A stretch of DNA of 41,068 nucleotides from Cylindrodendrum hubeiense. Lineage: Eukaryota; Ascomycota; Sordariomycetes; Hypocreales; Nectriaceae. Positions within the stretch are counted from its first letter, which is position 1, and the number at the start of each line of letters is the position of its first letter. The stretch is from the NCBI GenBank assembly GCA_014621425.1, contig JAANBB010000367.1:1-41068 (forward strand), given 5' to 3'. The position numbers and the translations under genes are program-made. Below are positions 444 to 35,850 of this stretch, piece after piece. Under the pieces are notes generated by a model. The model saw only the letters and a program-made list of their open reading frames with translations. It had not been told where the DNA came from and made no database searches.

Positions 444-847
444 TTATATTTGCCAGTCGAATTGCCCCCCTATGCCGGCCAAAGTACTGTCGCGCGCAGC
501 ATCCTGCGAAGTGGACGCATTTAGCAGTAGCGTTGCATCCGGCTGAGTCTCATGTAGCCTTGCGACTGCAGTTGCAACAGCGACATTTGCTGCGTACAAT
601 ATCATGGGCACTAGGATAATGAGCAAAGTGCCGGGGTCGTACAAATTATCTTGCGTTCGTGCGCTGACGGGATCTTGAGGGTCCCTCGATTGAGCCGTGA
701 CCGCGCAGGTATTTCCAGAGTTTATAAGCTCTCGTTAGCCGAATGTTTGGCTATTAGATGGGCCAGAGGATCTAATCATCAGGAGTTATAGAAAGTGTCT
801 AACCATGGATCGGAGTCAGTAGCCTTCTCAGTTGAACCGGTGGACAT
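444..847 (-). CDS. Small two-exon gene, family member F (unknown function)
   Basis: Proposed exons are 847-804 and 684-444 with a 119-bp GTTAGA...CGAG intron, giving 94 codons plus stop. Exon 1 reads MSTGSTEKATDSDP and ends in phase 2, exactly as in the other five members of this window's family. Exon 2 carries the core as DPVSARTQDNLYDPGTLL and ends LAGIGGQFDWQI, matching the GAQF tail of members A-C. It is the most divergent copy. After the core it has a hydrophobic stretch of about 20 residues (roughly residues 34-57) that the others lack. The CTAAC box near 732-737 is not followed by an in-frame acceptor at the usual 14-19 nt, so a more distant acceptor had to be used. A TATA-like AT run lies near 1137-1150. 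Splicing is inferred; a decayed copy is the alternative. Confidence 0.5.
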
Positions 848-1415
848 GATGCATGCAAGGCCCAGTAATCAAGATAGTTGTCGGCATCCAGCGCATGACA
901 CTGGCAGTGTGCCACAAGGTAAAAGAAGACATAAGGATTGTTGAGCAATGCTATAGTGGTGAGAGGCTTTCGTGCGGACTGCCCAAGGGGAGTAAAAGAG
1001 GTACTTCGAGTGCTGGAATAGCTGGCAGTCGGTGGTTGTACGGCGGGACACGGGGAGGAAGGGACAAAGAGGTCTGGGAGCAGCATTTATGCTGCAGATG
1101 ATACAGTACACCCAGTTTCGGTTGGGTCAAACTCATATGTTATATATTTGAATTGTGACGCTCGAAATGGTATCAACCGCTTTTTCCCGTGTTCAAGATT
1201 CTTCAGTTCACATGGGGCCTGTATATGAGATGAATCTCGATGTCTGCATCCTAGACCCATAGATGAGGATCATATCTGTTGTAGCCCGCCTAGGGCCTCC
1301 CCAAGACAACCCGAGAATCCAGCCATCTTACTCTCCTACTACGCGTTCTCCTCGCAACAGAAACCGCCAGCCGCGGCTCAAACTCTCCACACGAGACCTG
1401 TGGAGCCTATAGCCT
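848..1415. other. intergenic, promoter side of member F
   Basis: This is upstream sequence of the gene starting at 847 and the 3' side of the minus-strand gene ending at 1416. The AT-rich run near 1137-1150 is the only promoter-like element I see. Frames on both strands at 799-1111 mirror each other and show no recognisable protein. Confidence 0.4.
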
Positions 1416-1943
1416 TCAAGGTGTCAGGCCGAAAATGAGCATAATAGCCCCTACTGCAAGCGCCAGGCTCAGCGAAGGCGTCGTCGCTCCAGCTCCAGAG
1501 TCATACTCTTTGAGGTAAGGGTATCCCACGATCTCGAATTTCTCCGTTGTCACCACTGAAGTTCCGTCCATGGTCTCGTTGGAGTCTCGGAGGCGTGAAA
1601 GAGATGCTTCGAACCAGTTGTGCGTGCCAGCGGCAAGAAACTGCTTGGAGTCGTCCTCGGTCCAAACCTCTACCCATTCGGGGACGTCCCAGGTCCACGT
1701 ACTGTCGTTTCTTGTGTCGATTGTTTCGAGGTTGATCCCCCATCGACCCGTCTGGCCGGAGTCGCCCGTAGCGAATATGAGCTGAAGCCAAGGCTCCAGG
1801 GTGACCCCTTCAACGATCGGCCATTTGAACACGACAGGCTCCGAGAAGTTGATTGGTTTGCTGGTATCGGGGGCGGTAAATTCGAATGTGTGAGTGACCG
1901 GGGCCAAGGCGCAAATAAAGAAGAGGGCGGGTAGGACTCTCAT
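1416..1943 (-). CDS. GPI-anchored Kre9/Knh1-like secreted protein
   Basis: An intronless frame of 175 aa. I chose the ATG at 1943 because it opens directly into a signal peptide (MRVLPALFFICALAPVTHT); the frame extends further upstream but without signal-like sequence. The mature part starts FEFTAPDTSKPINFSEPVVF and contains WTWDVPEW, which fits the N-terminal domain of the Ser-Thr-rich GPI-anchored membrane family related to yeast Kre9/Knh1 (about residues 20-125). NFS, NDS and NETM are possible N-glycosylation sites. The C-terminus has a small-residue patch (DSGAGATT) followed by a hydrophobic tail LSLALAVGAIMLIFGL, the expected GPI-attachment signal. It probably sits at the plasma membrane or cell wall. 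The family is linked to beta-1,6-glucan and wall integrity; the exact role here is inferred. No neighbour suggests an operon-like or cluster relationship. Confidence 0.8.
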   Translation of the reverse strand: MRVLPALFFICALAPVTHTFEFTAPDTSKPINFSEPVVFKWPIVEGVTLEPWLQLIFATGDSGQTGRWGINLETIDTRNDSTWTWDVPEWVEVWTEDDSKQFLAAGTHNWFEASLSRLRDSNETMDGTSVVTTEKFEIVGYPYLKEYDSGAGATTPSLSLALAVGAIMLIFGLTP

Positions 1944-4900
1944 TGTTGATTCAAAGGATGTAGTTATCATTGCTATGGCCAGTTTCAAGAACAGAGGTAG
2001 AATTTTGTACTTCGCTGGCCGAGTTGAGGTGTTTATGAGGAAGCTGGAGTTGCGTGGAGCGTCTAGGACCCTCGTATCATTGTCAAAAGAAAGTACATTC
2101 ATACCATCAGCCCTACGGCACAGCCCCCCCCTGAAGGAAGATCAGCAGCACGGAATTGATCATTCCAAGTCCCCCATAGGCGGCGCTTATGAGCACTCGT
2201 ATTTGCCGGGCGATGCAGACCGTTAACCGAGGAAACCTGACCCTGTGATCGGACTTTGCAGGCGGTCAGCATTCGGACGGGCTTAGCGCAACTCGGTTAG
2301 TGGATCAATCTTGCAAAGGTATGAAGGCAGCAGCAATTTGAGAGAGGCCTCCTGGGCATCCCATAGCCATTGATCGTGAGATCGAGCATCTCGGTATCTG
2401 ACGACGGGGTAGTATTTGCTACCCTCCGAGAATGGCCATAGGTTACCTTGTCCCCTTGCCTTCATTTGATGCGTTAGGGTATTTACACTTCCTCTGCGTC
2501 GGCTCACGGCAGCGGTCGCAGAGCGACGGCGCCCTATGATTAAGCTTAAATTTAGGCTAATTGGCGCGTCCACCTCGGAGACATTTTCGTTTAGCAATCA
2601 GCCTTCCTTATTAAAATAAGATGAACTAATGGGCAGGTTTATCTCTCCCTTCGTAAAGCTCTCACATTGGACTTGTTGGGTCAGTCCATCGCGCGAGTGA
2701 ATCACTGGTGCCCTGCGTCGCACGATGGGCTGGAGCTCCAAAACGAATTTCCCCGCGTCCCACTGCTTCACATGATGAGGGTTCGAAGGATGAGGCCCTG
2801 GTTCACTAAGGCTCGGTTAAAAGCAGCAGCAGCTTAGGACCATAGACAACAAGGGAAAGTTTCAACGTCTTCATTCGTCTCGGATAATGGGCTGTTATCA
2901 CGCGGAGAACCTGCCAATCAAATGAGCCTAGTCGTGTATTTTTGGTGTCAGGATGGGGCCCTCACGGCGCGCAGCTGTATCCAACACAGGCCTTACCTAA
3001 ACAGGCAGGTATAACACTGCCCTCCATATTGCATATTGGCTTGAGAGGCGCCTATTCAACATGGCTCACTGGCCGCCAGGGTCTCTTGCAAGAGATTGCA
3101 ACTGTGAAGCGGGGTACGTGATGAGAATTCCGCCGGCGTCACACTCGTATTCAACGTCTGGAAATCGCGGCCCAAGAGCAGAGGCGATACGGTTTTGCTA
3201 CGTGAACTACGATTGCGAGCTGAATTCACACTCTCAATAAATATATGTTCACAGAGAAACCAGAAGCTAAACTAGAGGAACCCAACTCCCAGCTCTCGCT
3301 ACTATCGGTACCTGGGGATATGGCGATCCTCCCACATTCCAGCTTCTACGTCTGGAATATTGTACGGGCTGCGGCATCCCCAAATGCAGACTCATTTAGT
3401 ATCAAACCTAGTATGCCTATTAGAGATATGCCTTGAAATGTACCCCAAGCCAAGGAAATCTAACATGAGCGCCAAGCTAGGGCCGAGCTGGCGGCAGCTT
3501 CGTCCTGCTGTGGGGTTACTGCAGTGGGTAAGGGCAGCTTCCTTCGTCCTTATTGTTGCAGCAGTTGCCTTTCAAGGAAGGTAGATAACTGCGCTTCGGC
3601 TTGCCCACTCTGGTCAACGACGTGGATAAGCTGCACAATTGTGCGAATCTCATCCCCAGGATAGCAGTCCTAGTGGCTTTAGATTCGCATCTGGCATTTA
3701 GAGATCTTGAAGGTGGTTCTTACTAATTGAATAACCTATTTTTGGAGCACCGTGATTTCCCTTCCTACACCGCTCTCGAGCATGGCTTGGACCCTGATTG
3801 TTGTTCATGAGATTGCTAGGATCATACCGCGGGTGGGAAGGCTGCGTTCTTCTTTACCTAACTCATTTATGCTAGGCATGCATCGTATGCCAGACCGCGA
3901 TTCTACGCTTAGTTCACAACTTGGCGTGTCGTGTGACATTGTAAGGTCCTTCCGCACCATCGCCTCATCGGCATGCCCAAACCGAACAAAAGACTGGCAA
4001 TCACCGGACCATTGACCTGGCCTCTCTGAATGCGCTCTGAAGCAATGAGAAGTTTTACACCCCATGAGCCAATTTAATTTCGCGTAGGTGTTCATGCATG
4101 TTGGGGGTGACACTTGTCGTACCTGAATATGCTGGTCACAGCCGTATAGAGTAACTTGCCGTTGCTCGCTACTCGCGGCCACACTGATATCGACAAGGGC
4201 TGGAGAGTGCCAAGCCTATCTGCAATCTAGCATTGGAACACGTGGGGAGATCGCCAAGAGTAGTCTTACGACATCTATCTCCCAACAGAGCGTGGGATGC
4301 TCCAAGGCGGGGTTGGAGCACGTCCCGCAATACGTCAGTGCCCAAGTTGTGACAGTGGCCAACCAAGTTGAGCCAATAAAGCACAAGCCGTATAGATAAG
4401 TAATGGGCGTAACGCATTGGTATAAGACTATTTAATGCACAAATAGACGTCAAACCCCAACTCCAACACCAATACTCCAGGGCCTGATGACCCGTCACGA
4501 TCATCATTTGGTCTTCCTATCTGGAGACCAAAAGCCTGCTATTATATGATGAGCCAGTAGATAAATGAACTGGAGCACCTGGTCTTGCAATAAGACCATC
4601 AACTACTGCCAATACGCAATGTATACTCGGGTCGCGATCCAGCAATAGAGTGCCAGGATGATAGGTCGGGTTTTGAAGTCGAGCAGAAACAGGCTGTTGG
4701 GTATCGTGAACGAAGCGATCGATGTGGATTGATGTGCAAGGGGTGCCCGAATCGTTACTATTGTCAACGTGTTATTGTCAGCGGGGTTTCTGGGCCTGAT
4801 GACAGCTTGCGAGGACAGCTGAGCTGGCTTAACAAACTGAAAATAGGGACGGTTTCTTACCTTTGCACGTCATCCCGGGAACCATCGACTGTGGGCGTGG

Positions 4901-6766
4901 ACCCGAGGGCCATAGAGACAGATGTGGACATGTTCGATTATCTAGTGCTGTTAGCATGTCATTGCAAGAGGGAGGGTAGGGCTAGACGAATGGACCTCCG
5001 GATAAGGGTACGGATAATGGTAGCTAGCACGGCCGAGACGAAACATGTCAGGCAGTACAATGTTGACAGTCGGCCAAAGGATGCAAGAATAGATTCGGGG
5101 AAAGAAGCCATCGCATTAGACCTGATAATGCTGTGTTCATCCTGGAGTAAATAAGCCGAAGGGAACAGACTTTATACCAACCGGCGGTATCCTGGCCATC
5201 CTGGAGAGCATGGGTCACTGACGGGTCTATACTGTTGGGATTTTGAGGTTCAAGTGGTGATCAGGTGGCTTCTTGAAGGCAACTCTGAGGATACACCCCG
5301 CAAAGCCACCTAATAGTTGGATTGCGATGTGGACCAAGCTATTGGAAAAGGACTTCTGTAGAGGAAGCTATGACCCTCAGAGTGGTAGCGGGCGCTACCA
5401 ACGAGGTAGGGTCATGGAATGGGACGCGAAGCCATGAGCATGGGTGGCGATCATGTGCTACCATTGTGGAGCGGCGCCCGAGATAAGGCAAATGTATTTT
5501 GAAAGAGGCCATCACTGGATTTTCGTCACGGATACAAAGTCGCCAGTTCTCGTAAACAGGGACATCGAATCATCGGGGAGTGAGGTAGCTCATCCGCAAC
5601 ACCGCGCGGAGGCTGCCTGATGATGGTATTGCGGTAGCGAATATTCAGCTGAGGTAGAAGTTCCAGGGGAAGCTCCTTAATGTCCTAAAAGCCCATCCGG
5701 GGTCGCCGAGCTGTCGGTACGCGCGTGTCGAATTGCTAAGCACATGGTGGTGGGTGGTTGAGCTGGAGCATTTCTTCCGTGCAGTTACTCAAATAGGCAG
5801 GTGGTAATTGTTCCGCCAGCTGTACCATCAGACACCAGACTCTACTGTGACCTTGTGTTGGTCTTTGGAGAGCAGAGAAATACACGGCATGATTAGCGGC
5901 TATCCGCTTCTGCTTATCATCCGATTCGGCCGTGGGCATTCTCAGAATGAATAAAAATGGGGATGTTGGGTTACAGCTGAGGCGGCATTGGACCGCTTGT
6001 GTTGGTTGGTCTTGTACCATATTGGCCTTGCTAGAGTGTCAAGGCGCTCGTGCATGCGCCCGCATAAATAGCGAGTGGTCTTTCATGGCCCTTTGTTATT
6101 GAACGGAGCTCCGTTGCGAGTCGGAGATCCCACAGTCAGGTACGTGTCGATCTCGTGCAGTCACAGGATATTCGGTCCACGTCCGCACAGGGTAGCTTTA
6201 CACGCAGTGTAGATCATACACAGGACAGGCGTGAGCAGTAATCGCCGAGGATTCGGTTGCGACGCTTTTCGAAGATATGAAACTCCAATTCTCACCCAAT
6301 AATTGAATGGGAATTGCTGTGTTCAGGGGGTTGAGTGTACGGATTACTCGGCAGCTATCATGCAGCTGTTGGTGGCACGCAGGAGCTTCCCCGCTCGATT
6401 TGATCGTCGTGTGTCTGACGTGGCCGTTCGCCACTTCCGCCCCAACTGTGCCTCGCATTTGCTTCGCAGCATGAAGGCGGCCGGAGGCTCCTTGTCCCGA
6501 GAGGCCTGTCCCCATAATCCATTAAATCTTCTTGAATTTATGAGCTGCATTAAAACATTTTGCACCTATCACTTCTTAGCCGTGTGTGACACAAAACTAG
6601 TGCCGCAAATGGAGAGACAGTTCGTGCTAGTTGTCTCCTCGTCTCTTGGCTGACAGCCTTATCGGCTTGCCCTGAACCATCCGAAATTCCACTCGCTTTC
6701 AATTTGTTCCATGCATGGATCATTGTGTGTTCTTTCTCCTGCCGCTAATGATCTTCCTTGTCCATG
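1944..6766. other. long gene-poor stretch
   Basis: Nearly 5 kb without a gene I can support. Open frames of 100-140 codons exist (for example 2283-2597 minus, 3805-4182 minus, 4729-5154 plus), but none shows a known domain, splice-consistent continuation or signal peptide. I saw no tandem repeat or transposon terminus. It may contain strongly diverged transposon or gene remains that cannot be read by eye. Confidence 0.4.
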
Positions 6767-7174
6767 TCAACAGTTTATTTCCACTGACCCCCGTCCCCCC
6801 TTCCGGTTCAAGCGGGCATGCCGAAGGCGATGCAGCCCAGTGTTGAATCTTGGTCTCAGCCCGGCTGAGCTTATATGAGCTGGCCAGCCCACCCCCGCTT
6901 CTCTTGTTTCATATGGGTGACACACTGAACTCTCCAGCGAGTGACTGCGATTTTGAGCTTCAATCAACGGATTTATCCCGAAGCTGAATGCACCTCTGAA
7001 TCCTATCCCGTCGCACCCGGAGGTGAGCATGCTGTTGACAGAGAAAAAGTCGCCGTAGCCGTCACACCAAACCATCCAGCACGCGGACTGAGAAAAATGT
7101 GAAGGAGTGGGGACAGGGCTTACCACATCATCAGCCCCAACTATGGATGTTGGATTACCGTAGTAATCCATCAT
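6767..7174 (-). other. possible small Cys/Trp-rich coding fragment
   Basis: I do not recognise this. Reading from the paired ATGs at 7174/7171 gives MDYYGNPTSIVGADDV, then an in-frame GTAAGC...TTTTTCTCAG element of 36 bp that resembles a very short intron, then SACWMVWCDGYGDFFSVN and further residues including a second Cys. The pyrimidine-rich AG end and coding-like downstream residues are suggestive. However, 36 bp is shorter than normal fungal introns and the rest of the frame looks random. It could be a decayed exon. Confidence 0.2.
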
Positions 7175-7485
7175 CTCTCTCCAAGTTCAAAACAGTAGCA
7201 GAATACGAAGTACCGTAGGGTGATGACAAGTGATGGCACCAATGGCTGTTCCATTTTCGAAGTAGCATGTTCATCTATACCAATCGTCTAATATCTATGA
7301 AGCCGTTTACCCATTCCCAAATCAACTGGTATCTTGATACGGATCAAAGACCCATTATATGGCTCAATTATCGTATTATCGCATGTATAAATAATATCCA
7401 ATGTTATATGTCTATACAAACAGAACCGTCTCTCTACCTGACACCTAGCCATCATCAAATCAATATTTCTTCTCTCAAAGATATG

Positions 7486-7910
7486 TTAATTAGATGAGAA
7501 TTGCGCTCCAAATCCTGCAAGATCGTGTACGCTTCCACCAGCTTGCGACTGATTTGGTGGTATCAAGCTCGTAAACATTAATTGCGCGGCGGGGTCGCGA
7601 GAGAACAATGAGCAGCCGGTTGTATAGGACGGATTCTGCATTCGGGCGTTAACAGGCTCGTGGGCGTCATCATTGAGAGATTGAAGGGTGTGAGTGGTTC
7701 CATGGGTTGTGGCAAGTTTGCGTTGTGAGGCGCTTCTGTCGTTTGCACGAAACTGTCAGCGGAAGGTTCCTTCACTGTGTGACTTGTAAATCTCATCTTT
7801 CGAGCACTTGAGATACCACATGGGATTTCTAGAGCAATGAAAGAAAAATTGAGAGAGAATTCTTACCCATGCGCAGAGCCTCGAGAAGAGTTGGTGGTTG
7901 ATGTCGACAT
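7486..7910 (-). CDS. Small two-exon gene, family member A (unknown function)
   Basis: Exons are 7910-7867 and 7735-7486, with a 131-bp phase-2 intron (GTAAGA...GACGACAG-type end). The spliced frame is 97 aa. Exon 1 is MSTSTTNSSRGSAH; exon 2 carries HEPVNARMQNPSYTTG, then CSLFSRDPAAQLM, and ends VHDLAGFGAQFSSN. The gene shares its exon-1 length, intron phase, core motif and tail with five other minus-strand genes in this window. A CTGAC box lies 19 nt before the acceptor. If the more upstream CTGACAG were used as acceptor, the frame would break before the core, so the acceptor was chosen by comparison with the other copies. No signal peptide or membrane segment. An AT-rich TATTTAAT element lies near 8174-8184. 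Function unknown; I know no family with this core. Confidence 0.72.
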
Positions 7911-9627: not shown

Positions 9628-9670
9628 TCCAAAAGCATCTGGGGTCTGATCGACCCCAGATGCTTTTGGA
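9628..9670. repeat. perfect 19-bp inverted repeat, 5-nt loop
   Basis: The left arm 9628-9646 and right arm 9652-9670 are exact reverse complements (left arm TCCAAAAGCATCTGGGGTC), separated by TGATC. No extension of the stem beyond either end. A transcript through it would fold into a strong hairpin. It is not beside a gene I can name, and a perfect palindrome is unexpected in otherwise decayed sequence, which suggests recent origin or a function. Confidence 0.9.
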
Positions 9671-10836
9671 CTAGCACGGTTCTCATCATCAGGTAGCTTG
9701 GTGTCTTGATCCAGCAATCCAAGATGGAGGATAGAGGTGTAGAGGAAACAATGTATTTTATGTCCTTGGGTACAATACGAGGATTGGAGACACGCACATC
9801 ATCTCTGCCCTTCACTTCACTGATGCTTTCGGCCTGTGTCCTCGGTTCATCTGGCCGACTTGGTTTTTCTCGAACGCCCCTCAGTGGCAACTGGCCGATG
9901 GCATGATACGCGTGAGTCGATGGGCAAGGGATTCGAGGAGTCCTGATAGGTTATTCAGCCCGAAAAGTGATATGAGAACAGACGGCAGTAAAAACTTCCC
10001 AGGCTCCCCAGCAAATGAGATCATACAATTCGAATGGCTGGAGTGCAGGCGCGGACCATGCCTGAGGGAAAACAGCATTATTTGGTTAGCCACATCATGT
10101 TCAGATTCCACCTTTCGGTGTTGACTGCTGCCTTGACTGTTCGGCCGTCCCACTCACGGGTAGTCTGGGGATGTGGGAAGGAACATAGGGCGAGGCCTGA
10201 GGGGACTACACTAAGCACAAAACACACAATAGCGACACGTGACGGGGGTTGGAATTAACTAAGCGCGCCCCCACACGGCAGTAGGAAACACAGATGAGAC
10301 TGGGAACACGCCCATATTGTCCCTGACCAGAGGGCATGTTGGAAACTTAAAGCTTTTATTCAATTGCCCCTAATTCGGAAGTGGAGAGCGTTAAGCCAGT
10401 AACGCTGCCAAGCACAGCTGTGCGTTTTTGTTTTCCATTGTTCCCATTTCCTTCGGCTCCCATCTACACTTGGGCTTGACGTATTGTGCTACACAATTCC
10501 CTTAGATGATTCACTTGCGCTCGTTCTGTAATCGCGTTATGGTGCACTTGTGGCCTTGTGCACACAACCCTGGGCAACTAAATGGTCGACAGGTGCTAGC
10601 CGCAGTCGTAGTACTGGTAGCCACAATGGCTTGATGGTCTTTTCCAATAACTAGTAGTAGACCCTCCGAGGTGGCTGAGAGTTGAGTAGCCGAGAGACCG
10701 GAACATTTTCAGTTGCGGCTTGTCGCCTTTGTCGATGCAGTTGCGCAGCCGGATGACATCATGCGGTCCTCCAAAACCGCCATACTCCTTCAGCAGCACG
10801 AGAAATCATGTCAACGCCATCTTCCTGAAGTTTATC
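9671..10836. other. no gene seen
   Basis: Frames on both strands between 9624 and 10258 are shadows of each other and match nothing I recognise. The stretch ends at the stop of family member B. Confidence 0.4.
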
Positions 10837-11244
10837 TTACTTTGACGAAAATTGCGCTCCAAGACCAGCAAGATCATTTACTCCTGGAACAGCCTTTGAC
10901 ATTGTTGTTTGGGATATTTGGCTCAGGCCCGGAACTACATATCGCTCTGAGGAGTGGCTAGAGGTGAATTGAGTGCCGGCAACGTATGCCGGATTTTGCA
11001 TTCGTGCATTTACGGGTTCGTGGAAGTCGTGGGAGAATAGATGAGGAAGGTAGGTAACTCTGCGTGGTACAGTAGGCTTGTGTGAGAATTTGCTGCTATT
11101 AAATCCACTTGTTAGTGGAGGGATTCCTTCGCCATGTAGCGGAATCTCATCGCCCGAGTATTGACACTTGTAGTAGCAGAGTAATGAAAATCGTGCGTAC
11201 CTCGGCAAGGAGCCGTGGGAAGCGTTGGTGGAAGTTTTCGCCAT
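10837..11244 (-). CDS. Small two-exon gene, family member B (unknown function)
   Basis: Exons are 11244-11201 and 11095-10837, with a 105-bp phase-2 intron (GTACGC...TTTAATAG). The product is 100 aa. Exon 1 is MAKTSTNASHGSLP. Exon 2 begins SKFSHKPTVPRR, holds HEPVNARMQNPAYVAGT and ends VNDLAGLGAQFSSK. An ACTAAC branch box lies 15 nt before the acceptor, as in member C. Unlike the others, the GTPLF-RDP half of the core is replaced by GTQFTSSHSSE. Member C resembles it most upstream of the core (FNSSK/FNNSK encoded across the acceptor region, then a basic segment). An in-frame unspliced reading from 11319 also exists, but the intron model is supported by the five paralogues. Function unknown. 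Confidence 0.75.
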   Translation of the reverse strand: MAKTSTNASHGSLPRYARFSLLCYYKCQYSGDEIPLHGEGIPPLTSGFNSSKFSHKPTVPRRVTYLPHLFSHDFHEPVNARMQNPAYVAGTQFTSSHSSERYVVPGLSQISQTTMSKAVPGVNDLAGLGAQFSSK

Positions 11245-13808: not shown

Positions 13809-14231
13809 CTACTCGCAATAGAATTGTGCACCCAACCCTATAAAATCATGGACTATTTCAGCAGTCTGCGGTGCAGACGCTTTTTTTGGAAGTGTAAGGT
13901 CCGCGACCATGTGTTGTGCTTCGGGGTCACGAGAGAACAACGGAGTGCCACAAGTGTAGTACGGATTTTGAATTCGAGCATTGACCGGGGCGTGATGATC
14001 TCGGGTGGAGGTTTGAGAGATACGGATGGCTCGTGGCGCGGTAGACTTGTCTGGGATTTTGCTATTATTGAAGGTCGTTAGCAGTGTCTTAGATTTGTGA
14101 CTTAGAAAGACTATCCGCCGGGAGCCGGGTGACTAGTACCGGAATGCAAGAGAGATGAAGGGATGATAAAATTTAGGTGGGACTAACTTTGGCATGAAGC
14201 CATAGGAAACGCCGGTGGAAGCCGTCGACAT
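13809..14231 (-). CDS. Small two-exon gene, family member C (unknown function)
   Basis: Exons are 14231-14188 and 14061-13809, with a 126-bp phase-2 intron (GTTAGT...AATAATAG). The product is 98 aa. Exon 1 is MSTASTGVSYGFMP; two further in-frame ATGs lie just upstream (14240, 14234), but 14231 aligns with the other members. Exon 2 starts KIPDKSTAPR, has the core APVNARIQNPYYTCGTPLFS then RDPEAQHMV, and ends VHDFIGLGAQFYCE. A GCTAAC branch box sits 15 nt before the acceptor, the same spacing as member B. No signal peptide. A TATTTAAT-type element is found near 14520-14527, about 290 bp upstream. Function unknown. Confidence 0.75.
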
Positions 14232-16258
14232 CATGATCATACGGGTCGTAAGGTTGAATGGAAGTGGTGAGTGGCAACGGTATTTTCAGGCGTTGGAGAA
14301 GGCTGAGAGGGTCTGGTCAGTACAAGTAGGTCCTCTGTCGTCGAGTGAAGCTAATGGAGGATGTGAATTAATAGTACATAAGTAAAGCGCAGTGCTGGAT
14401 AGTGTTTCCGATAGGGGCATCGCCAATCGAGAGAACAGGGAGCAATCAAGGGGGAGATCACTTAAAGATAGAGAGAGAATATTGCCAGTAGGGAAGGGAC
14501 GACGAATACGATGACTGGCTATTTAATGTAGCCGTCGAGTGGGGGGTGAGAAATAACACAAAAGCCAAGATGCCACAGACGGTGCTGCGTCGGATGAACT
14601 ACTGTCATTTTCAAGGGAAGGAAAGAGAAGGGACAAGTCGTCTTTATAGGGAACTTGAACAAGTCGTCACTGAATATCGGCATATGAATGAAGCCTGCTG
14701 AAACGCGCGCAGAGCGGCATAGGATCAACCAAGAGGGTGGTCGCGGAGGCCATTCATTGGAGGTTGAGACTTAGGCTGTGGCCTCGCACAGTGTATCAAA
14801 TGTCAATTCCAACCTTTTTACGTGTATTTGCACAGTGCCAGTCGATCTCACTTCCCCCCGGCAGTACTCGTCATGACATGGGTAGGGATTCAGCACACGG
14901 CACGCGGCACACGGCACACGGCACACAGAATACGGAATACGGAATACTGCACACAGAATACTGCACACAGAATACTGCACACAGAATACTGCACACAGAA
15001 TACGGAATACGGAATACTGCACACCAAACACTGCACACCAAACACCGCACACCGCACACCGCACACCGCACACCGCATAGCATAGCACAGAAAGCACATA
15101 GTGAGATCTCGCTCATACATACTGGGCAATTTGTGATGACAATTTCGGCACCAATTTCGCATACGAGTCGTGCAACGATGAACATGCCAACGCAACTCCT
15201 GTCTCCTTGAAGGGCGCCCAACGCGATAGCAAGAATAGTCGCAGAAGTTATCGCAATGCGATGCCTGAGACGGTTCGATAGAATGGGCCTTCATGAGAAC
15301 TCTAGTAACCCTTCATCCACGAAATTGCAATCCTGTTAGCTAGCCTTTTGTACGAATGACCATCACGCAGGTCTCCGGGACCACATGAATCATGTCCATA
15401 GCCTCAGGACATTGTCCCCCATAACGGAGGATTAATTCCGCACAGGACACAATTAAGCTTCTAATTTCGCATACATATAGTCGTATAAAGGGTCCGTACG
15501 GTTACTAATGTGTGAGTATCGTGCCCGCAATACCAGATATGGAAACCGTTGATGCTGGGTCAACTTAATCGTTGACCACCGTTTTTTTGCCCTGGGGATC
15601 AAGCTCCTTTCGCTCGGTCTTGAAGATCACGACAAAACTCTTCAAGACGCAAGGAAAATCCGGTTACTCATCACTATAGTAAGATCAGTGACATCCCTAC
15701 TGAGCTTTTCTTTTATGATTTGCCCCTTTGTCTTGGCCAATGTTCAAAAGATCCTCAGCCCGGACAGCTGACGTTGCGTATCCTCACGTTCCAGGGCGAT
15801 ATCTGTCTAGTGAAAATGCACATTTAAGCACTCACTTTGTGTTCAGATATCATCTCATACTTGACTTGCAAGAATGGTTTTTATGCTCATTTTCCTCAAA
15901 CATATTTTCTCACACTGCACGATCAGCAGAGATGCCAACCATCGACGAGACTCTATGTCAGTGTTGCCATCTTCAAGCCTCACAGACTAGCCCACAAATG
16001 TGCTTGAGAATACTTTCGAAGCAATTTGGTTCACTTCGTAATACTTCTTTATGTCCTTCTGCTCAACTGCTTGCTCAATTATGCCTGTGGTGGCAAGGTC
16101 CTAAGAAAATGAAGGTTCGGAGCATTACTATTTACAACCTTGATAATGAAATGATAGCTTGTTAGATATTAGGGATATTCTGCGCCTCAAAGCTTAATTC
16201 AACTACCCTTAGATACCATATGAGAAAAAAAGCGAGGGTAGGAGCCCAGGAATTATTG
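14232..16258. other. intergenic containing a heptamer satellite
   Basis: Apart from the satellite at 14892-15079 I see no gene. Long frames at 14737-15294 on both strands exist only because a 7-bp repeat without stops keeps frames open. The plus frame at 15728-16165 is not convincing; its right end runs to the 3' side of the hemerythrin-like gene. Confidence 0.4.
14892..15079. repeat. 7-bp variant satellite, about 27 units
   Basis: The sequence reads in uninterrupted 7-mers: GGCACAC (several), AGAATAC, GGAATAC x2, then (TGCACAC AGAATAC) x4, GGAATAC x2, (TGCACAC CAAACAC) x2, CGCACAC x4 and CGCATAG. Variants are arranged in ordered blocks rather than at random, a higher-order pattern. As 7 is prime to 3, each strand encodes 7-residue repeats in the open frames, rich in H/T on plus and C/V on minus. 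I consider translation unlikely. Confidence 0.95.
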
Positions 16259-21796: not shown

Positions 21797-22757
21797 CTAG
21801 TTATCAGGTTTCCTCCCCCAAACAAAGTAGACTGGCATGTAGATATGAATCGATGGATCCTTCAAATCATCCTTCACCTTGGCCATGAACACCTTTATTT
21901 CATCTGCACTCCAGCCTAGAACACGCGAAAAAACACCAGGCGTGTATGAATCGATCAACCGACTCTCTTGGACGGACTGGAACTTCCCCATGTCCTTCAA
22001 CTTTGGATCTTTAGGCCACGCCGACATTGGTATCTAGATTTCTGTCAATGCTCTGACTTTAAAAATCACGATTTAGATGGGTCATTTGAGACTTGGTACC
22101 TTGAAGACTTGTCGTTGGATGTCAACAAACCCCACACTTCTCATCTTGTCTTCCCATTCAGGTGCACTGTCAAGTGGCTTCCCAAACTTCGCTGCTCCCT
22201 CACATATAGTCTTTATCCATGACTGGGCATTGGTGGCCTTATCAGCTGTGCCATCATCCGAAAGAAAGCGCGGGTAAACAGCTTGCATCTCAAAATATCC
22301 ACCAGGTACCAGGTGTTGAAAGGCTTTTTGGAATAGCGACTCATTGTTGGTTACACATCCTCCTAATTCTCGGGTGTGTATTAAATCGAAGTTTTTAGGG
22401 TTAAATGCACGATTACTCATTAGAGATTCTAAGTATCACGAATAGTTTGCGAATAGCCTACTTGTAGTTGATGATGCTCGAATTGAGAGATTCCAGATAG
22501 CTAGCAGATGCTTCTCTGTGGGAAGAGTTAAAGGTGTCCATTCAAGGAATATCCAGAGGACTAACGTGACATTGAATGCAGAGTCAGAGTCATGTGCAAC
22601 ATCCTAGGCGCCATGGTTAACGATTGGCATACACTTGCAGGTTAAGGTTAGTACACACATCGGCTTGCAAAGGATTCTCAGCCAACAACCCTTGCAGTTG
22701 CGTTGCTGGATCCTGCGGCGGAGTATGAGGCTCCCTTTGGGTGGGTTCTTCAGCCAT
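21797..22757 (-). pseudogene. LaeA-like methyltransferase lacking its SAM-binding core
   Basis: Exons recognisable on the minus strand: 22757-22659 (MAEEPTQREPHTPP..., 33 codons), 22603-22566, 22515-22462 (ASASYLESLNSSIINYK), 22415-22100 (FDLIHTRELGGCV, HLVPGGYFEMQ, DGTADKATN) and 22033-21797 (MSAWPKDPKLKDMGKFQ, VLGWSADE, ending VYFVWGRKPDN). Introns of 55, 50, 46 and 66 bp keep the frame, giving 247 aa. Fungal LaeA-like methyltransferases of this type normally continue after the INYK-type segment with ENGRRYHAYR, then the glycine-rich motif I (G-G-G) and motif II. About 90-100 residues including the SAM site are absent here. Without the 46-bp intron 22461-22416, a TAG follows INYK at once. 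I therefore call it an internally deleted gene, probably inactive. A truncated expressed protein is possible. Confidence 0.75.
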
Positions 22758-24455: not shown

Positions 24456-24500
24456 TCATTCATCTGCTGAACGGTTCAATTGCACAGCATCACCCCTAAA

Positions 24501-25514: not shown

Positions 25515-26132
25515 GTGCAAGGAGTATTACAACTGTATTGAGGATTGGTGTAAGCGGCGCACTCTTAGTTTGTCTAATGAAGGGGTTTATAGAATAGTTA
25601 GTCCGGATTTGAAGTATAACCTACCATTAAGTCTATATTGGTAGACTTTTCGCCATATATTATCAAACCTATGTTCCATCTGATGAATCGTACGTTCAAT
25701 TCCCGACTGTAGTGAATTAGCATATGCCAATGCCGTTAGTGCATGGCGCCTTCGCGGAGTTCATCATCTAGCACATTTCAAAGTCGGATCGGCGAAAACA
25801 AACTCAGTGTGTGTGTTTAAACTAACACCGCTCTCTCCATCGATAATCGGCATTGACTTACGTAGTATCAATTTCTCATGTGTGCTCATCGATCCAGTGT
25901 TGAAGTGATATTGGTCGGGGGAACTACATTTCATCATGCTTTTGATGATAACCCGTTCTGTTCTTGATCTCCAATTGTATGCAAGACTCTGAAAACTATA
26001 CTAAACTCTTTTAGGCGAGATGCAGTCCCTCATTCGTCGTAAGAGACTTACCTTCACTATGAAAGGCTGGTTATTGCACATCGCGAGATGTTTCTTTTCT
26101 AGATTGAAAGCTAGCTGTATGAATCATCTAGC
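25515..26132. other. convergent intergenic region
   Basis: The 3' flanks of the oxidoreductase and cupin genes. AT-rich with no frame of note. Confidence 0.5.
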
Positions 26133-28138: not shown

Positions 28139-28339
28139 CTACGTTTTGTCGTTCTCCACGTCCTTGGTCTCCTTCGCAGCTTGTGGAGTAGTCGCATTAT
28201 TGGAATATAGCAACTGAGTCAACTCTGGCGTCTCTGTCAAATGCGATGCTTCTGCAGCACTCTCGTGGGCAATATTTCCCACTTCATCTGGCACTGTCAC
28301 AGTGTGCACGGCGAGGGGCCGGGTCCTGTCGCGAAGAAG
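28139..28339 (-). other. coding-like C-terminal fragment, unrecognised
   Basis: The minus frame before the TAG at 28139-28141 reads VTVPDEVGNIAHESAAEAS, then TETPELTQLLYSNNATTPQ and finally KETKDVENDKT. This acidic, Ala/Thr/Lys-rich run looks like a real hydrophilic protein tail. It opens after a TAG at 28340-28342. A GTAAGT donor near 28373 (after a reading DWWRLLAVM) and a TGTGACAG acceptor near 28290 could make it the last exon of a larger gene, but nothing recognisable lies upstream before the tRNA. Probably a relic. Confidence 0.3.
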
Positions 28340-28567
28340 CTAAAACCAATGGATGTAGCTGCAACTTACATGACGGCTAGAAGTCTCCACCAATCAACAG
28401 CGAGTATATATGCCCATTATCACTAGTTGTGGTACGAAATATGTAGGCATAAGTGGATAGGGTACAGACGGTACAATTATCGTTTTTCCAGCTAGGTTGA
28501 AGAATGCGTGGGAATTCGATTCCAAAGTAGAAGAATTGGTGATAGTGTCACAACAAATATACAAATA

Positions 28568-28666
28568 GGCAACTTGGCCGAGTGGTTAAGGCGCTGTGTT
28601 TAGGTTCTCTATTAGAAACCAGACCCGCAGTGGGAAACCGCGCAGGTTCGAACCCTGCAGTTGTCA
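28568..28666 (+). tRNA. tRNA-Leu (anticodon UAG) with short intron
   Basis: The acceptor stem pairs GGCAACT (28568-28574) with AGTTGTC (28659-28665), with one G-U pair, and A28666 is the discriminator. The D arm is GCC/GGC with a GAGTGGTTAA loop. The anticodon stem is CTGTG (28594-28598) with CGCAG (28626-28630), and the loop starts TT followed by TAG at 28601-28603, so the anticodon is UAG. About 20 nt after position 37 are an intron (about 28605-28624). The variable arm TGGGAAACCGC has class II length, as required for leucine. The T arm is GCAGG-TTCGAAC-CCTGC. No CCA is encoded, as expected for a nuclear gene. Internal A and B boxes are intact. Confidence 0.93.
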
Positions 28667-28675
28667 TAAATCTTC

Positions 28676-28680
28676 TTTTT
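28676..28680 (+). terminator. RNA polymerase III T-run
   Basis: Five T residues start 10 nt after the tRNA discriminator base, the expected Pol III stop signal. Confidence 0.75.
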
Positions 28681-30302
28681 GATCAAGCTGATACTGTTTT
28701 GGCCTAGCCCCTAGGGAATTAGCTGATGGGGACAGAACCTGCGTATTCGTATGATCAACTGGGCAAAGTTATAAAACTAAGAGGGCGAGCTATGGCTAGA
28801 CTAGATCATCCAACGTGAAGAAATACGTCTATTCGCTACCAACCAGTGTTGGAAAATGCTAGAATCCGACTGCTGAAAGCGGTTGAAATAGTTAGCGTTT
28901 AGCTACCATGTAACAGGCGCATAATTGATAAAAACACAATAGTGGGGGCACAGGGTTCCACGAAGAATAGTTGGAGAGTGTTTTTTGCTTGGTGAGTGGA
29001 TCATAGTTGAGAGTGAAGTGGATGCAGATACGGATGTAAACCGTTTTTTTTAGAACTGAGACGCTAGTACGTAGTGGTTTCCGTTGCTGTGGTCAATACA
29101 GAAACTTGAGATAACTAGTATAAGTTAACCTAGAGTAGGATCAAGTAAATAGACAGGTAATAATTATAAGGCAACGGATGTATTTATGAACGTCAAAAAT
29201 TAACTACCACATCAACCCACAATTAAACTGGCAATATCTTGGATTCACAAAATATTCCAAGAATCAACGTAATCCTTGGTATGAAGAGCACTCGACAACA
29301 TTCGTTCATCTCTCAAATGCATAGACGTGCTCTAGCCCCGTCACAGGGTTTTGTTTACGATTATTTAATCACCGCCATGAGGACACGAGTGTCTAAGGAG
29401 ACCTTTATGGGGCAAGACGACGTGCTAGGTACAGGGTAGGTGTGACGGCCGAGGCCGCTAGCCAGCTAAGAGTAGCTCGAAGCCGCAACTTGATGTCGCA
29501 TGCAAGCCTCAGGTCTCTCCACGCGAGCCGAGACTGAAAACGGTTAATAACCCCCATGTCCTGGATCTTGTCCATGGTGCTGCACATGCCGCTAGTGACG
29601 TGTCCCTGCACAAACGCAGCATACAATACCAACCCCGCAGCAAAGATGAGAATGACATATTTTGGCTTCCGTCGGAAGAGTTGGGTGGTAGGCTCTCACT
29701 TCACCGGTGCACTGGGGTGAATGGCTGTGCAGACACAGAGAGTTAAGGTGAAAAGACAGTTGTAGAATAGCCAGTACCTGCCCCGGTGGGGGATTCTGAG
29801 ACTATGCCGGAGCATACGTGGTATCGTTGTTGTCTCTTTTCACAGTGGCCCCAACTGGAGGCTTCATAGACATCAACAGGTTGGGTAGTGACTCTTCTGT
29901 AACATTCGCAACGTGCGATATTTGAAAGGCTTGGAGTGCCTACGATATTTACAACCATGGGCTCCTTCTTGCGGAAATAAAGTCTGGATTCAATCAAGGA
30001 CTTCGGAGAAAGGATGGCAAAACGTGAGGGAACAGTGAGATTTTGATCCCTTGCTTCCAGTGTGGCCACGACTGTGATCTCTGGCGCGGCGTCCGCCTCA
30101 CTTCCGCTTCCTCGGCCGTCCAGCACTGACAGCGAGTGCGTTCTGAGACATGCATGGTGACCTCATCGCTCTGACCGGCTCACACAATATGGAGTTTGAC
30201 GGCTTTAGTCACTCCATGGTGCCGCCAGTTGACCGGAGGAAGCGTGCAATTTGATACTTGCCTACATCGCGTGAGTCGGATACTTCGATGAGTCGTCGGG
30301 AA
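28681..30302. other. gene-poor stretch with one membrane-segment frame
   Basis: The minus frame about 29691-29405 reads TTQLFRRKPKYVILIFAAGL, then VLYAAFVQGHV. That is a basic patch followed by one hydrophobic segment, like a signal anchor, continuing CSTMDKIQDMGVINRFQ. The minus frame 30126-29743 (Ser/Val/Arg-rich) may be part of the same lost gene. Neither matches a family I know and no splice model joins them. Confidence 0.25.
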
Positions 30303-30374
30303 GCGATCGATTCTAGATCTGTGTGATCGTCGCCCGTCAATCGCACGATTGATGGCCTGTGCGATCACGTCGGA
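30303..30374. repeat. 72-bp dispersed repeat, copy 1
   Basis: Aligns without gaps to 34135-34206 with about 62 of 72 identities. The centre is a near palindrome (TCAATCGCACGATTGA), flanked by GTGATCG and CGATCAC in inverted orientation. Read on the minus strand it encodes AINRAIDGRRSHRSRIDRFP, which is conserved in copy 2. Confidence 0.8.
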
Positions 30375-31586
30375 AACTCGTACAAACCACTCAACCGACA
30401 GCCTCGTCAGGGCTGCTCATGTACACTGCGATGCGCTAATTCCAGGCACACACAACTTCCTGGGGTGATGAGCTAACCGCAGGCCGTGCGACCGCCGAGT
30501 TGGTCGTGTGCATGGCAAATTATGAGTTGGCACGGCGGAAACCGGTTCATTTGGACTTGTTTACAGAAGAGGGATTGGACCTAACACCGCCAAGAGATGT
30601 GAGATGGCTGTAGCGACTGGGGGATCTACAGTGCATGTGCATCCAAAGTTCCATTCCAACGGTGTTATGTATATGCCAACACATCACCCCAGAGGCCCGC
30701 ACATACAAACCCACAGAGCTGGTAGAGGATCATGTCGGCCCCGATGATGCCCAATCGCATTTTACTGCCCTAAACAGTTAGACGATGGCCTGTATAGTAT
30801 TCCACGTATCATCGTTCCCCATCAAAGTCGGAAGAGGCCATGTACCCCGGACAGGCTGAAGTGGCCTGCTCCAGGCGACTGGCCCTTGATGATAGATGGT
30901 CCAGCCACACACGTACGTACCATGCACAACACAACACACGCGTACATGGAAAACAGGCAACAGGCATACGCGGGATACTTACACATGTGCGATTATACTG
31001 CTGCCCGAAGGGTCCCTTGTCCTAATTCATGCCGGCTCTGCTCAACTGGGGAATGGCCGAATCTCAGTGAGTAACTGACTAGGGCGACCAAATTCTTACC
31101 GACCAATCTGACTCCACGCTCCGTCCTGTTTCCTGATTCGCAATCGCAATCGAGGCTGAGAGTTAAAATCAGCGCTCACACATTGAGAAATGAACGGGCG
31201 CAAGAACGAATCCTTGGTGTTTTGCTGTCTCCCTTGCAGGAAAACCTGTTTTTAAACTGCTGCAACGAGGAAATTGATCAACTGAATACAGTCGGCATCG
31301 TCCAACGGGGTGGCAGAGTCGATGCTATTTATGACCGTCAATCACGCAAAGAAACATCGCGGATGAGGCAAATAGGCATGTACAACCAGGTAATATTGAA
31401 TCTGACACCAGCTTACGCAAGTTACGAAAGGATAAAGTACAATCATCCACTAAATTCAACACCGACACCAGGACCAGGAAGACAATGATACGCCATCATG
31501 CTAACCGTTATTCCCACGAATGTTTAGTAGTTTAAAAATGAACCGCGATCTCAACCAAAAAGAAAATTAGAAAATCCCGCACCTCG
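30375..31586. other. no gene seen
   Basis: Frames at 30778-31078 lie on both strands and are unrecognised. The stretch ends at the stop of family member D. Confidence 0.4.
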
Positions 31587-31950
31587 TTAGGAAGATGCAT
31601 TGCGAACCGCTGTCGGGCTTGCTGTGTGGGTGAGAATACTCGTAGCCGCAGCAATGACAAGTCGGGCATTGGGATCACGATCAAATAGCGGCGTCCCAAA
31701 AACGTAGGATGGATTCTGCATTCGTGCACTGACGTGATCATCGGCGTCATGTGTAAGGTTAAATGGGAGGATTCTGATATCGGTGGCGGCACCGACATTG
31801 ATGCCGGTGCTGCTTCAGGGTGGCTTGTTAGCGAACATGATTTGCCTTGTGACTCGACAATTAATGGTTGAAATTGGAGTAAAATGTGAGGCTGTAAATA
31901 TTATCTCACCTCGGCACTGAATCTTGCGCCACGGTGGCAGAAGATGACAT
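31587..31950 (-). CDS. Small two-exon gene, family member D (unknown function)
   Basis: Exons are 31950-31910 and 31812-31587, with a 97-bp phase-2 intron (GTGAGA...CCTGAAG). The product is 88 aa. Exon 1 is MSSSATVAQDSVP (13 codons, one fewer than the other copies). Exon 2 holds DDHVSARMQNPSYVFGTPLF, then DRDPNARLVIAAAT, and ends SPTAVRNASS; it lacks the GAQF tail. A GCTAAC box lies 14 nt before the acceptor, as in member E. The leader just upstream (TCAAGCACAGAGTTGC...) is similar to that of E, differing mainly by C/T and G/A changes, so D and E look like the most recent pair. A TATATAAA element (minus strand) lies near 32268-32276. Function unknown. Confidence 0.7.
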
Positions 31951-34134
31951 GACTTTGGCGGAGACGGATGTGGGGCAACTCTGTGCTTGACGGCGGCAGC
32001 TCGCCGCTTGATGGTGACAAGAATCTCTGCCGCAATGGCAGAGAGGAACAAAGGCGCCAAAGGGGAAGACGAGGCCCTCGGTATGAACAAGGGACATGGT
32101 AGTAAGCAGTGAACAGCGGAGAGTATGCCCTTCGAGTAGATGCTGCTGTAGATTGAAAGGTGTGAAGAAGGAATTATGACGAAAAGCACATGTGAAATAG
32201 CTGCAGCTAGATAGCGAGATGTGTGATGAAATGCAGTCAATTTCATCTCATGAGGTGGAAGAAATCTCATTTATATACGTCCGAATGCTTTTGAGTGGCA
32301 ATGAAGCAACTCCATGCCGGGATGCTTGAAACTCAAACAAGGCTACCAGGAATGTTTGCAACTAGTTGGGCCATGGATCAAAGAAACAACCACGCATATC
32401 AAGTCTTTTGGGAAGCAGTTGTCGATAATATCTGTTAGAATAAACTGAGTCATATACAAAGATTCCTGGATGCCGTGCGGGTCCTGAAAGTCCATAGCCG
32501 CACACATGTGAGAAACCGCGGCAGGCAACTGAGAAGGGCGTGGGGGAGCGTACCGGCACGGCGTTGGCTTGGCCTCTCGCCTTGCAATTTTTGATAGGCC
32601 CAGATACGCGTGCTTGGAACGGGGTCTCCCTTGTCTGTTCTTTCAACCACAGAGATACATACCGAGTGCTTGGTCCCTCTCAATCGACTCACATCACTAC
32701 CGTCGAGTCCACCCACTGACAGCAAAAGTCCTTCGGGTTCGGCTCCGCTTACGTTCTAAACGTGGACCCCGAGCCATCTACTTTCCCTACTGGTCACCAA
32801 GGTTTCTGTCCAGCCTTCTCCCATCGGAAGCCCGCCCTTTAGGTCGGTTTCCGTTCTTTGCACTCGGTGCGCCGAGTCAAGATCGAGGCTGTTCGTCGCC
32901 TCATCCCAGTACCCATAAGGCTTCCCAGCAAGGGATTGCGGCACTCAGATTCGGGATTGGCTACTCCGTACCCAACAACACATGTGATATTGCGGCGGCC
33001 TCATCATCACCTCCATGACCCCAGCTACGGATTCGCCAGAAAGGTATGCTCTGTGTTGGATCGTCTCAAGCCGCGAGTTGGTGCCTCCAAGTCAATCGCC
33101 GGCCGAATCCAACGTCAGCCGTCCGAAGCCCCGCTGTGAGCCCTGCTGAGAGCCCACTACATTGGGGGTACCACTGTTCCCACACAGGCCACACCACATC
33201 CCGCGTATCAGCCAAGCCAGCCCAACGTACATGTCGGTCTGAGCTGTCCTTTATCAGGGGCTCTTGAAAGCCCTGATTGTAGTCCATCATGTCGTATGGC
33301 GGAAAGGGCCTAGCGACTCCGGCGAGTACAGTACGGCCTTTTAAGCCGCATGCTGCATCGATCAGGTGTTACTCCGTACGCCTGTGGTGGCAGTTGTTAG
33401 CTGACGCGACGCAGCACCAGCTCTGTGCTGTCCAGTGTCTCAGCCTTCTCCACCCTGGAAGCAATGTCTGAGATGTTGGACCGGCTATAGCTGTAGTACA
33501 ATATCGTGTCTCCCCGACTTGAGTCATATGACTTGCGCGAAAACCAGCGTCCCTGGGCTAGCCGCACGCATCGCTACCCATATACCACCCAGGCTAGAAC
33601 CTTGTGGTGTTTTATTTGGGTGAGTGAAGCATCTCAGCCAGTTCCGGCGGCTCGCTCCTTGACGCCGACAGTCTACTACAAGGATGAAGGCAGCTGGGCA
33701 GCACTCGCCCACCGTGCGCAGGCTGGAGAATTCGACGAGGCTCGCAATTTGGAGCTCCGTATTCCCGACGCAAAGAAAGCTTGACCAGCTGTGCCACTCG
33801 TTTGTCGACGATTATGACTACGTCGACTCTCACTGCGCGGAGGCTCTGGCCCCTTCAGCGTGTACAAGACGCGGCTGGTCGACTTCGGCCCGCTTACGCC
33901 AAGCACTCTAAACGGCCATACGGCGCGACACTGGCAGATGATCTGAGTCTATCGGTAATAACAGTCATCCACGAAGGCCACTGGCTGCAGTTGCCTGGCA
34001 AGTTGGTCTCTTTGCACCGGCGTATTATTGGCGTGGAGTATCGGGTGTTGGTGAGGCGCTACGGCCCGAAGGTTACCTCGTGCCCAGCGGTTCAGCATTC
34101 CCCACGTCGCATTCACATCACACCATCTCGGGAA
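31951..34134. other. GC-rich stretch with decayed frames
   Basis: After the leader of member D the sequence becomes GC-rich from about 32500. On the minus strand, 32944-32756 and 32725-32450 are one frame separated by a stop near 32755 (KPYGYWDEATNSLDLDSAHR, then GGLPMGEGWTETLV, later SVGGLDGSDVSRLRGTKHS). They may be a broken gene. Plus frames at 33506-33911 are equally open. No domain recognised. Confidence 0.3.
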
Positions 34135-34206
34135 TCGATCGAGTCTAGATCTGTGTGATCGTCGCTCGTCAATCGGCCGATTGATGGCCCGTGCGACTGT
34201 GTCGGA
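34135..34206. repeat. 72-bp dispersed repeat, copy 2
   Basis: Partner of 30303-30374, in the same orientation. Here the centre is a perfect 16-bp palindrome, TCAATCGGCCGATTGA. The minus-strand reading AINRPIDERRSHRSRLDRFP keeps the peptide of copy 1. Flanks do not align well. Confidence 0.8.
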
Positions 34207-35503
34207 AGTTGTACTCAGTTGAACAGCATGACCAGGACTGCCATTGTCGGTTCTGTGCTCGCGCTGGGATCCAGCAATTCGAAGCACAGACGGTTCCGAC
34301 TGGGAGGGGTCGACTGAAGGGCACGCGATCGACGAGTTTGCCATGTCCGTAACAAACCACGACTGAGCGAATCAATGTTTTGGCGGATGGGTGTACAGAC
34401 GGATACCCAGAGCCGACACCATTGCGACGCTCGACACACCGTTTGGATTGACGCTAGCCGCAGAACATGGAAGGCGATAAATAGTGAATTGGATTTAATG
34501 TGCCATCGGTGCAGTGCATGCGTCCAGGGTCTCAGTCCCTAAGCCTAAGCCTGGGAGGCTCGCTGAGGGTCCTCGGGTCGGACGAAAACTCATCGCATGC
34601 AACCATCTCGAGCAGTTAGGCTGCCATGTACCGTGCTCTATCGGCATAACGGGAAACGGGGGGTGCAAAGTGGTGGTGTACCAAACCATGTCGGGCTGAG
34701 CTCGCCCGTCGGAGGCCGCCCTGGATGTCCTGACACAGAGGTATTTCACACAGCCACCTACGTACATACTTCGTACAGCACACGTGAGCCGGGTCAGCAT
34801 TCCCCGTAAACACGGGTAGGTAGGCTGCCAAGACATGTGTGTGTGGGCGTACGGGGCGTCCCTTGCTTCGTCTAACCCACGTGTTCGGCTCGGTTACAAC
34901 CGGGCTTCTGACCCGCGTGAATTATGAAAGCAACTCTCAGCTTGCACTGGAATTTCGATCGAATCAGTCAACGAATGACCTGAGACGAACGCTCGCGATA
35001 TGTGCCTGCCCGTCATTAGGGAAAAGTATCTCACTGTCTGCCGCATCGAGGAATTTCCCTTCACTTTGTAAGTAAAGACTCACCAAAGAAAGAACGAAGC
35101 CCAGGCTAATCTATTCATCTGAACTTGCCCAACCCTGATATCCTTATGAGATACTACTGGGGTTGGTATTGTATCGAATGAAGCGGCTTCCCGTACAGGC
35201 CAGGAAACTCTGTGGAGTATGACCAACAATGAAGTCGATATAAACACATAACTTTCGACCTTACGGAGAAAGAAGCGTGGGATTGGTTTAACGGTAGATA
35301 TAAATGCCCAGAACAGACGAAACCTTTAGCTTGTCCAAGGTAGGAAAACGTAGAATATCTATTGCTATCTACCAACATCAACAAGAGCGGATACCATGCC
35401 ATGTCAAATCACGCATCATGTCCGCCTATTTCAATGACTTAAATTTTAATCGCACTCATGGAAGTGGCGCAATTTAAATTCTAGCATTACGTCATGTCGA
35501 AAG
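34207..35503. other. no gene seen
   Basis: GC-rich until about 34900, then AT-rich. A plus-strand reading near 34300-34470 (DGSDWEGSTEGHAIDEF, ADTIATLDTPFGLTLAAEHG) looks faintly coding but is interrupted by stops and unrecognised. Confidence 0.35.
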
Positions 35504-35850
35504 TCATGTTGGTGCCTTGGGGGCTCCTGTAGCAATAGCGATAACTCTTTTCAAATGAGGATCGCGATTAACAAGGGGTGTCCCAAACACGTAACACGGG
35601 TTTTCCATTCGTGCATTGACAGGCTCGTCCCCAGTGTAGATTACCTGGGGAGTGGGGTTCGTTCGATGAAGGGTGAGAGGGTTATCTGAGGCGGCATTGC
35701 TTTGCCCGTGTACGTTAGCAAAAGAGATTCGCATTGGGATTTGATGGGCTCTGAGTTAACAGTATTTAATAAAGCAAAAGAAAGGCAAGATTGAAAATTG
35801 ATTTACCTCGGTACGGATCCTCGAGTGACGTTCGTGGAAGATGGTGGCAT
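35504..35850 (-). CDS. Small two-exon gene, family member E (unknown function)
   Basis: Exons are 35850-35807 and 35699-35504, with a 107-bp phase-2 intron (GTAAAT...GGCAAAG). The product is 79 aa. Exon 1 is MPPSSTNVTRGSVP. Exon 2 starts NAASDNPLTLHRTN and carries DEPVNARMENPCYVFGTPLV, then NRDPHLKRVIAIATG, ending APKAPT without the GAQF tail. A GCTAAC box is 14 nt before the acceptor. The leader resembles that of D. An ATATTTATA element on the minus strand lies near 36120-36129, about 275 bp upstream. An unspliced reading from 35734 is possible but would lose exon 1, which is conserved in the whole family. Function unknown. Confidence 0.72.

Follow-up and report, generated by a model that had tools for sequence, protein, structure and literature searches.

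Lineage-restricted multigene families of small disordered proteins are a familiar general kind, and the family described here resembles them in its local clusters, small products, and lack of a known domain, but differs in the notable constancy of its exon-1 length, intron phase, and branch-point distance, and in that homologues reach at least three genera. It is represented in a window of 41,068 nucleotides, the whole of contig C298 (49.2% GC) of Cylindrodendrum hubeiense, whose assembly is listed in PMC11433043 as 48.81 Mb with 51.81% GC; the genome searched here consists of 47,533,381 bases in 798 contigs. The proteins have a short Ser/Thr-rich N terminus, a variable linker, a core reading EPVNARMQNPSYxxGTxLFxRDP, and then a short predicted helix, and they fall into subfamily A, which shares a C-terminal GxGxQF motif with the Fusarium proteins, and subfamily B, from which this motif is absent. 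We regard the gene family as almost certainly genuine, not previously described, restricted to its lineage, and subject to purifying selection.

Homologues outside this genome, which the first-pass annotation had named as support for the family if they had the same intron, are reached by profile searches in Ilyonectria and in six Fusarium species or strains. The Ilyonectria protein, BKA56DRAFT_619071 (P0002) of Ilyonectria sp. MPI-CAGE-AT-0026, matches at an E value of 2.3e-13 in a protein profile search and has the subfamily B layout, but its linker is longer in the public model. The Fusarium proteins are all uncharacterised: FALCPG4_003081 (F. falciforme), N0V84_006986 (F. piperis), CEP53_012202 (Fusarium sp. 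AF-6), CEP54_006527 (F. duplospermum), MRS44_000627 (F. solani), and NM208_g13322 (F. decemcellulare); P0004 and P0006 came from the profile searches, and P0007 to P0010 were found with those two as query. Their parts are in the same order: the M-(T/A)-(K/R)-(S/T) start with HGS or QGS is followed by a core reading EPxNxRLQ(N/D)P, and the C-terminal motif is GIGxQFS. However, there is one match per species or strain in the searches made, as against 27 places in C. hubeiense, and the GTxLFxRDP that follows the core is missing or changed, being partly kept only in F. decemcellulare (SYVAGT). By sequence similarity, the family is found so far only in Nectriaceae, in at least three genera. In a phylogenetic tree, P0001 and P0003 lie inside a subfamily A clade (support 0.984) and P0002 lies beside the window copies at 35504 and 31587 with weak supports (0.63 and 0.56); if this tree is right, the copies would have split before the genera did.

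The first-pass annotation had described six small two-exon genes in the window, and re-derivation from the sequence recovers all six on the minus strand, each with an ATG, a GT..AG intron, and an open frame, at the same lengths (94, 97, 100, 98, 88, and 79 aa) and with the 13- to 14-codon first exon (41 or 44 nt) and phase-2 intron that it had reported (Table 1). Its six members therefore stand, but the extent it gave the family does not, the window having seven copies and the genome 27 places. The seventh copy matches the exon-2 profile at an E value of 3.1e-15, though it is outside the profile seed. Acceptors are ambiguous by one codon in three of the six (96/97, 99/100, and 87/88 aa). Copy 1 is the weakest in the window (exon-2 profile E value 1.3e-5, also outside the seed) and is matched by P0005 alone (E value 6.2e-6); its GAG acceptor is unusual, it has no branch point, and one stretch reaches a Kyte-Doolittle mean of 2.28, a hydrophobic stretch missing in the other six window copies. 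Exon 2 of one copy matches another window copy at an E value of 3.8e-13 and a copy on a different contig at 4.3e-13, so chance similarity is excluded.

Table 1. Family copies and TATAAA elements in the window (copies 1 to 6 are those of the first-pass annotation)
Feature	Position	Strand	Details
Copy 1	444..847	-	94 aa; exon 1 847-804, intron 803-685, exon 2 684-444; diverged, acceptor doubtful, hydrophobic stretch
Seventh copy	4517..4931	-	103 aa (97 aa if start is 4913); exon 1 4931-4861, intron 4860-4758, exon 2 4757-4517
TATAAA	5171..5176	-	Upstream of seventh copy
Copy 2	7486..7910	-	97 aa; exon 1 7910-7867, intron 7866-7736, exon 2 7735-7486; subfamily A, GFGAQF end
Copy 3	10837..11244	-	100 aa; exon 1 11244-11201, intron 11200-11096, exon 2 11095-10837; subfamily A
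Copy 4	13809..14231	-	98 aa; exon 1 14231-14188, intron 14187-14062, exon 2 14061-13809; subfamily A
TATAAA	14643..14648	-	417 nt upstream of copy 4; may be chance at such distance
Copy 5	31587..31950	-	88 aa; exon 1 31950-31910, intron 31909-31813, exon 2 31812-31587; subfamily B, without GxGxQF end
TATAAA	32270..32275	-	325 nt upstream of copy 5; aligns with TATA box of C777 copies
Copy 6	35504..35850	-	79 aa; exon 1 35850-35807, intron 35806-35700, exon 2 35699-35504; subfamily B

Exon 2 of the copy at 13809 gives 20 matches in its own genome (E values up to 0.001) on six contigs, and further queries together with a profile run over the DNA around the matches bring the total to 27 related places on nine contigs, a lower bound that leaves uncounted weaker matches on C479 (E value 0.27), C290 (0.0135), and C712 (0.57). 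Seven places each are on C298 and C777, three each on C1 and C190, two each on C179 and C24, and one each on C2, C79, and C196. Copies within a cluster are mostly on the same strand (C298, 7/7; C777, 6/7; C1, 3/3; C190, 3/3; C24, 2/2; C179, 2/2), and they therefore appear to have spread by local duplication. The clusters lie near contig ends; a subtelomeric origin was considered and set aside, as the nine contigs that contain (TTAGGG)4 are all without a copy, which is a weak test in a fragmented assembly. Two repeats were seen on C777: overlapping long frames of a repeated HAWFLGLGL-like peptide (L009 2016-3201), which are therefore a minisatellite, and a 190-bp direct repeat between cluster copies, at C777:6944-7133 and 22482-22671 (L009 6944-7133 and L011 2482-2671).

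Automatic modelling yields at least one model at 24 of the 27 places, four of which (C1:713159, C24:241453, C777:23402, and C79:256359) were set aside because exon 1 is unlike that of the family or the best fit is implausible. With the 20 automatic models, two made by hand (C2, 84 aa, and C1:713159), and copy 1 from the earlier reading, 23 places have an open two-exon model, and a convincing one is absent at four. The 20 automatic models code for products of 77 to 116 aa and all have a phase-2 intron; 15 have a first exon of exactly 44 nt (lengths overall are 41, 44, 47, and 53 nt), and the C196 model has a GC donor. The model at C179:125111-125487, built before the matching public annotation was found, is identical to the public C. 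hubeiense protein G7Z17_g2553 (P0005). This is the only product of the 27 places found by protein searches of the public annotation, and within the limits of those searches most copies seem to be unannotated.

In 17 of the 20 automatic models, the intron carries the pattern CTRAY, the usual fungal branch point, 16 to 30 nt before the end of the acceptor. Of the acceptor-like sites in the window, 161 of 3,655 (4.4%) have it at this distance, as do 2 of the 84 others inside the 20 introns; the acceptors were picked by protein fit and not by branch point, and the profile used for the fit came from 16 of the models themselves. Both hand models have CTRAY, at 20 and 22 nt. In P0001 (131 aa, from a contig of at most 1,466 bases), the exon-1 peptide runs straight into exon 2 without an intron, as a spliced message would, although the gene may be intronless. 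In the 75 nt before the start, a branch point with an acceptor is also present in 7/22 cases versus 345/3,218 (p 0.006), which is no more than suggestive of a 5' UTR intron in some copies.

Substitutions in the core are most frequent at third codon positions. Comparison of 26 core codons among 25 copies (all except copy 1 and C2) gives per-site differences of 0.354, 0.267, and 0.539 at positions 1, 2, and 3, and pN is lower than pS in all 300 pairs, although these pairs are not independent, the copies being related, and pN is lowered by aligning the core for its conservation. Where it is computable (223 of the 300 pairs), core dN/dS has a median of 0.26, and whole models give 0.28 to 0.51 in nine chosen pairs, in keeping with the expectation of dN/dS below 1 among the copies. 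Constraint is weaker in exon 1 (0.424, 0.336, and 0.492 at positions 1 to 3). In blastn comparisons of the surroundings, most similarity falls in the exons, with promoter blocks and some C777 spacer repeats in addition. No signature of RIP is seen in the window (TA/AT 0.73; (CA+TG)/(AC+GT) 1.26, read against the cut-offs in general use), and decay by RIP is not indicated by these indices.

Of 22 upstream regions, each taken over 450 nt, 11 contain TATAAA versus 49 of 532 control stretches (9.2%; p 1e-6), and the other 11 lack it. It lies 112 nt before the ATG at C1:717945 and 117 nt before it at C179:120406, and the regions upstream of nine subfamily B copies can be aligned on a TATA-like block situated some 300 nt ahead of the ATG. 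No shared promoter words were found, upstream 7-mers being no commoner than in shuffles. The enrichment of TATAAA, together with the branch points and the substitution patterns, bears out the proposal that the copies were kept as genes rather than mutated to noise.

The core motif P-(V/F)-(N/S)-x-R-(M/I/L) is present in 22 of the 25 tabulated copies and altered in the remaining three; the untabulated copies have PVSART (copy 1) and PVSRRM (C2). By inspection and hydropathy, there is no obvious signal peptide, the N termini being Ser/Thr-rich and not hydrophobic, and no obvious membrane segment apart from the hydrophobic stretch of copy 1; the top 19-residue hydropathy average is at most 1.42 in the 20 automatic models. 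AlphaFold predictions for P0001 have a mean pLDDT of 50.9 with one sequence and 59.5 with 17, and in both runs the RDP motif is followed by a helix (residues 91-98 and 91-104), to which the 17-sequence run adds two further helices, both very short, in the core and behind it. The proteins are thus probably largely disordered with one short helix, a prediction of low confidence, as the low pLDDT could come from too few sequences instead of disorder. Pfam gives no convincing match for the 6 and 19 members scanned (best E value 0.049), nor does NCBIfam for 19 members (best E value 0.0062, in one member), and PDB has no match at E values up to 1. Core strings are absent from the literature searched, locus-tag prefixes appear in one paper, and none of the titles listed by word searches is relevant, which is not proof of nothing in print; within these searches the earlier statement that no described family has such a core holds.

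Genes around the clusters are varied. Ten chosen frames in the window include a hemerythrin domain and a zinc-binding dehydrogenase by Pfam, with weaker matches to methyltransferase, cupin, But2, and F-box-like domains. Ten chosen frames near other clusters include, among others, an NPHP3_N/NACHT protein and ankyrin repeats on C190, while those on C179 include a HET protein, a zinc-cluster protein, and an aldo/keto reductase. These 20 frames reveal no neighbour that recurs between clusters, and the suggestion of a new system gains no support from the neighbours scanned in part of the clusters, which include no common partner gene. The NPHP3_N/NACHT protein of C190 (frame at L012 6785-7999) has the N terminus GHFNIPAP..NNFHFNAPSNS, which we take to resemble the amyloid signalling motifs of fungal NLRs. 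The window also contains a tRNA reported by Rfam (45.9 bits; 28568-28666, plus strand) and not by ARAGORN, its length of 99 bases suggesting an intron; a near-perfect palindrome, seen by eye, at about 9635-9672 around AAAAGCATCTGGGGTCTGATCGACCCCAGATGCTTTT; a tandem repeat of short units at about 14870-15090 that reads HTEYCTQNTAHR in one frame; and an open frame at 37659-37979 (plus strand) with no Pfam match at E values up to 0.01, which is probably a gene fragment or one exon and contains an 11-residue motif corresponding to the P-type ATPase signature.

The copies might instead be decaying repeats, an old gene family or a non-coding repeat drifting neutrally with short frames open by chance. 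The four places without a convincing two-exon model (at C777:23402, for example, the best exon-1 match has no start codon), the poor acceptor and missing branch point of copy 1, and the recovery of one copy only from public annotation in the searches made are in line with this, but pN below pS in every core pair, the dN/dS of the nine whole-model pairs, branch points in 17 of 20 introns, similarity between copies that mostly ends at the exons, and RIP indices without a RIP signature all speak against it, and we consider decay very unlikely and already largely refuted. A mobile element could have dispersed the copies through the genome as its cargo or its own gene, and the scatter of clusters over nine contigs, the 190-bp C777 repeat (186/190 bases identical), and further spacer blocks common to C777 copies fit such an origin. 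However, blastn of stretches of about 2.7 kb at the 27 places finds only exons and promoter parts shared across clusters and no common ends within about 1.2 to 1.5 kb of each core, and Pfam scans of the copies find no transposon domain, the match that the first-pass annotation had named as a refutation; this origin also has very little likelihood. Small size, fast evolution, and many copies would suit secreted or membrane effectors acting on other organisms, as would the hydrophobic stretch of copy 1, but the Ser/Thr-rich N termini and the low hydropathy maxima of the automatic models argue otherwise, and this reading too is very unlikely.

Many-copy allorecognition and spore-killing families exist in fungi, and the copies could be genes of this sort, diversifying beside HET and NLR genes. 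The whole genome has at least 150 HET and at least 148 NPHP3_N matches, both counts being lower bounds, and the proximity test used 150 of 150 HET, 136 of 148 NPHP3_N, and 92 of 106 P450 matches, those omitted being second pieces and weak fragments. Four of nine sites have a HET or NPHP3_N match no more than 10 kb away, in surroundings that make up 10.5% of the genome (p 0.01), versus 12 of 92 P450 places (Fisher p 0.033), but the distance of 10 kb was chosen after the neighbours had been seen, and the comparison with P450 places is not significant at 5, 20, or 40 kb (p 0.149, 0.329, and 0.412). The association is nominal at 10 kb and not robust. Neither a HET nor an NLR match is present in the window itself, all nine chosen pairs have dN/dS below 1, and allorecognition or spore killing is in our judgement unlikely. 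A related reading, in which these small disordered proteins, numbering in the tens and combining free tails with a core kept by purifying selection, make up a diversified intracellular recognition or killer/rescue repertoire that sets strain compatibility or biases spore survival, is similarly improbable.

The reading that we prefer, and that taken whole has about an even chance of being right, is of a Nectriaceae family of small, largely disordered, locally duplicated proteins that would act as peptide-motif ligands of a conserved partner. This mechanism is proposed because of the likely disorder and the conservation of the motif. The genes would be expressed from TATA promoters under certain conditions, and the products would be intracellular and would bind the partner via the core and helix and then modulate it, while the linker and tail would diversify among copies.

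The family of 27 places has stayed almost wholly outside public annotation, where one copy was found, and outside Pfam, and it illustrates how small genes of two exons escape notice when the first exon has 44 nt. It is also a clean case of a lineage-restricted disordered protein with a short motif conserved across genera, and if the partner of the core motif is found, the reason for the expansion becomes testable.
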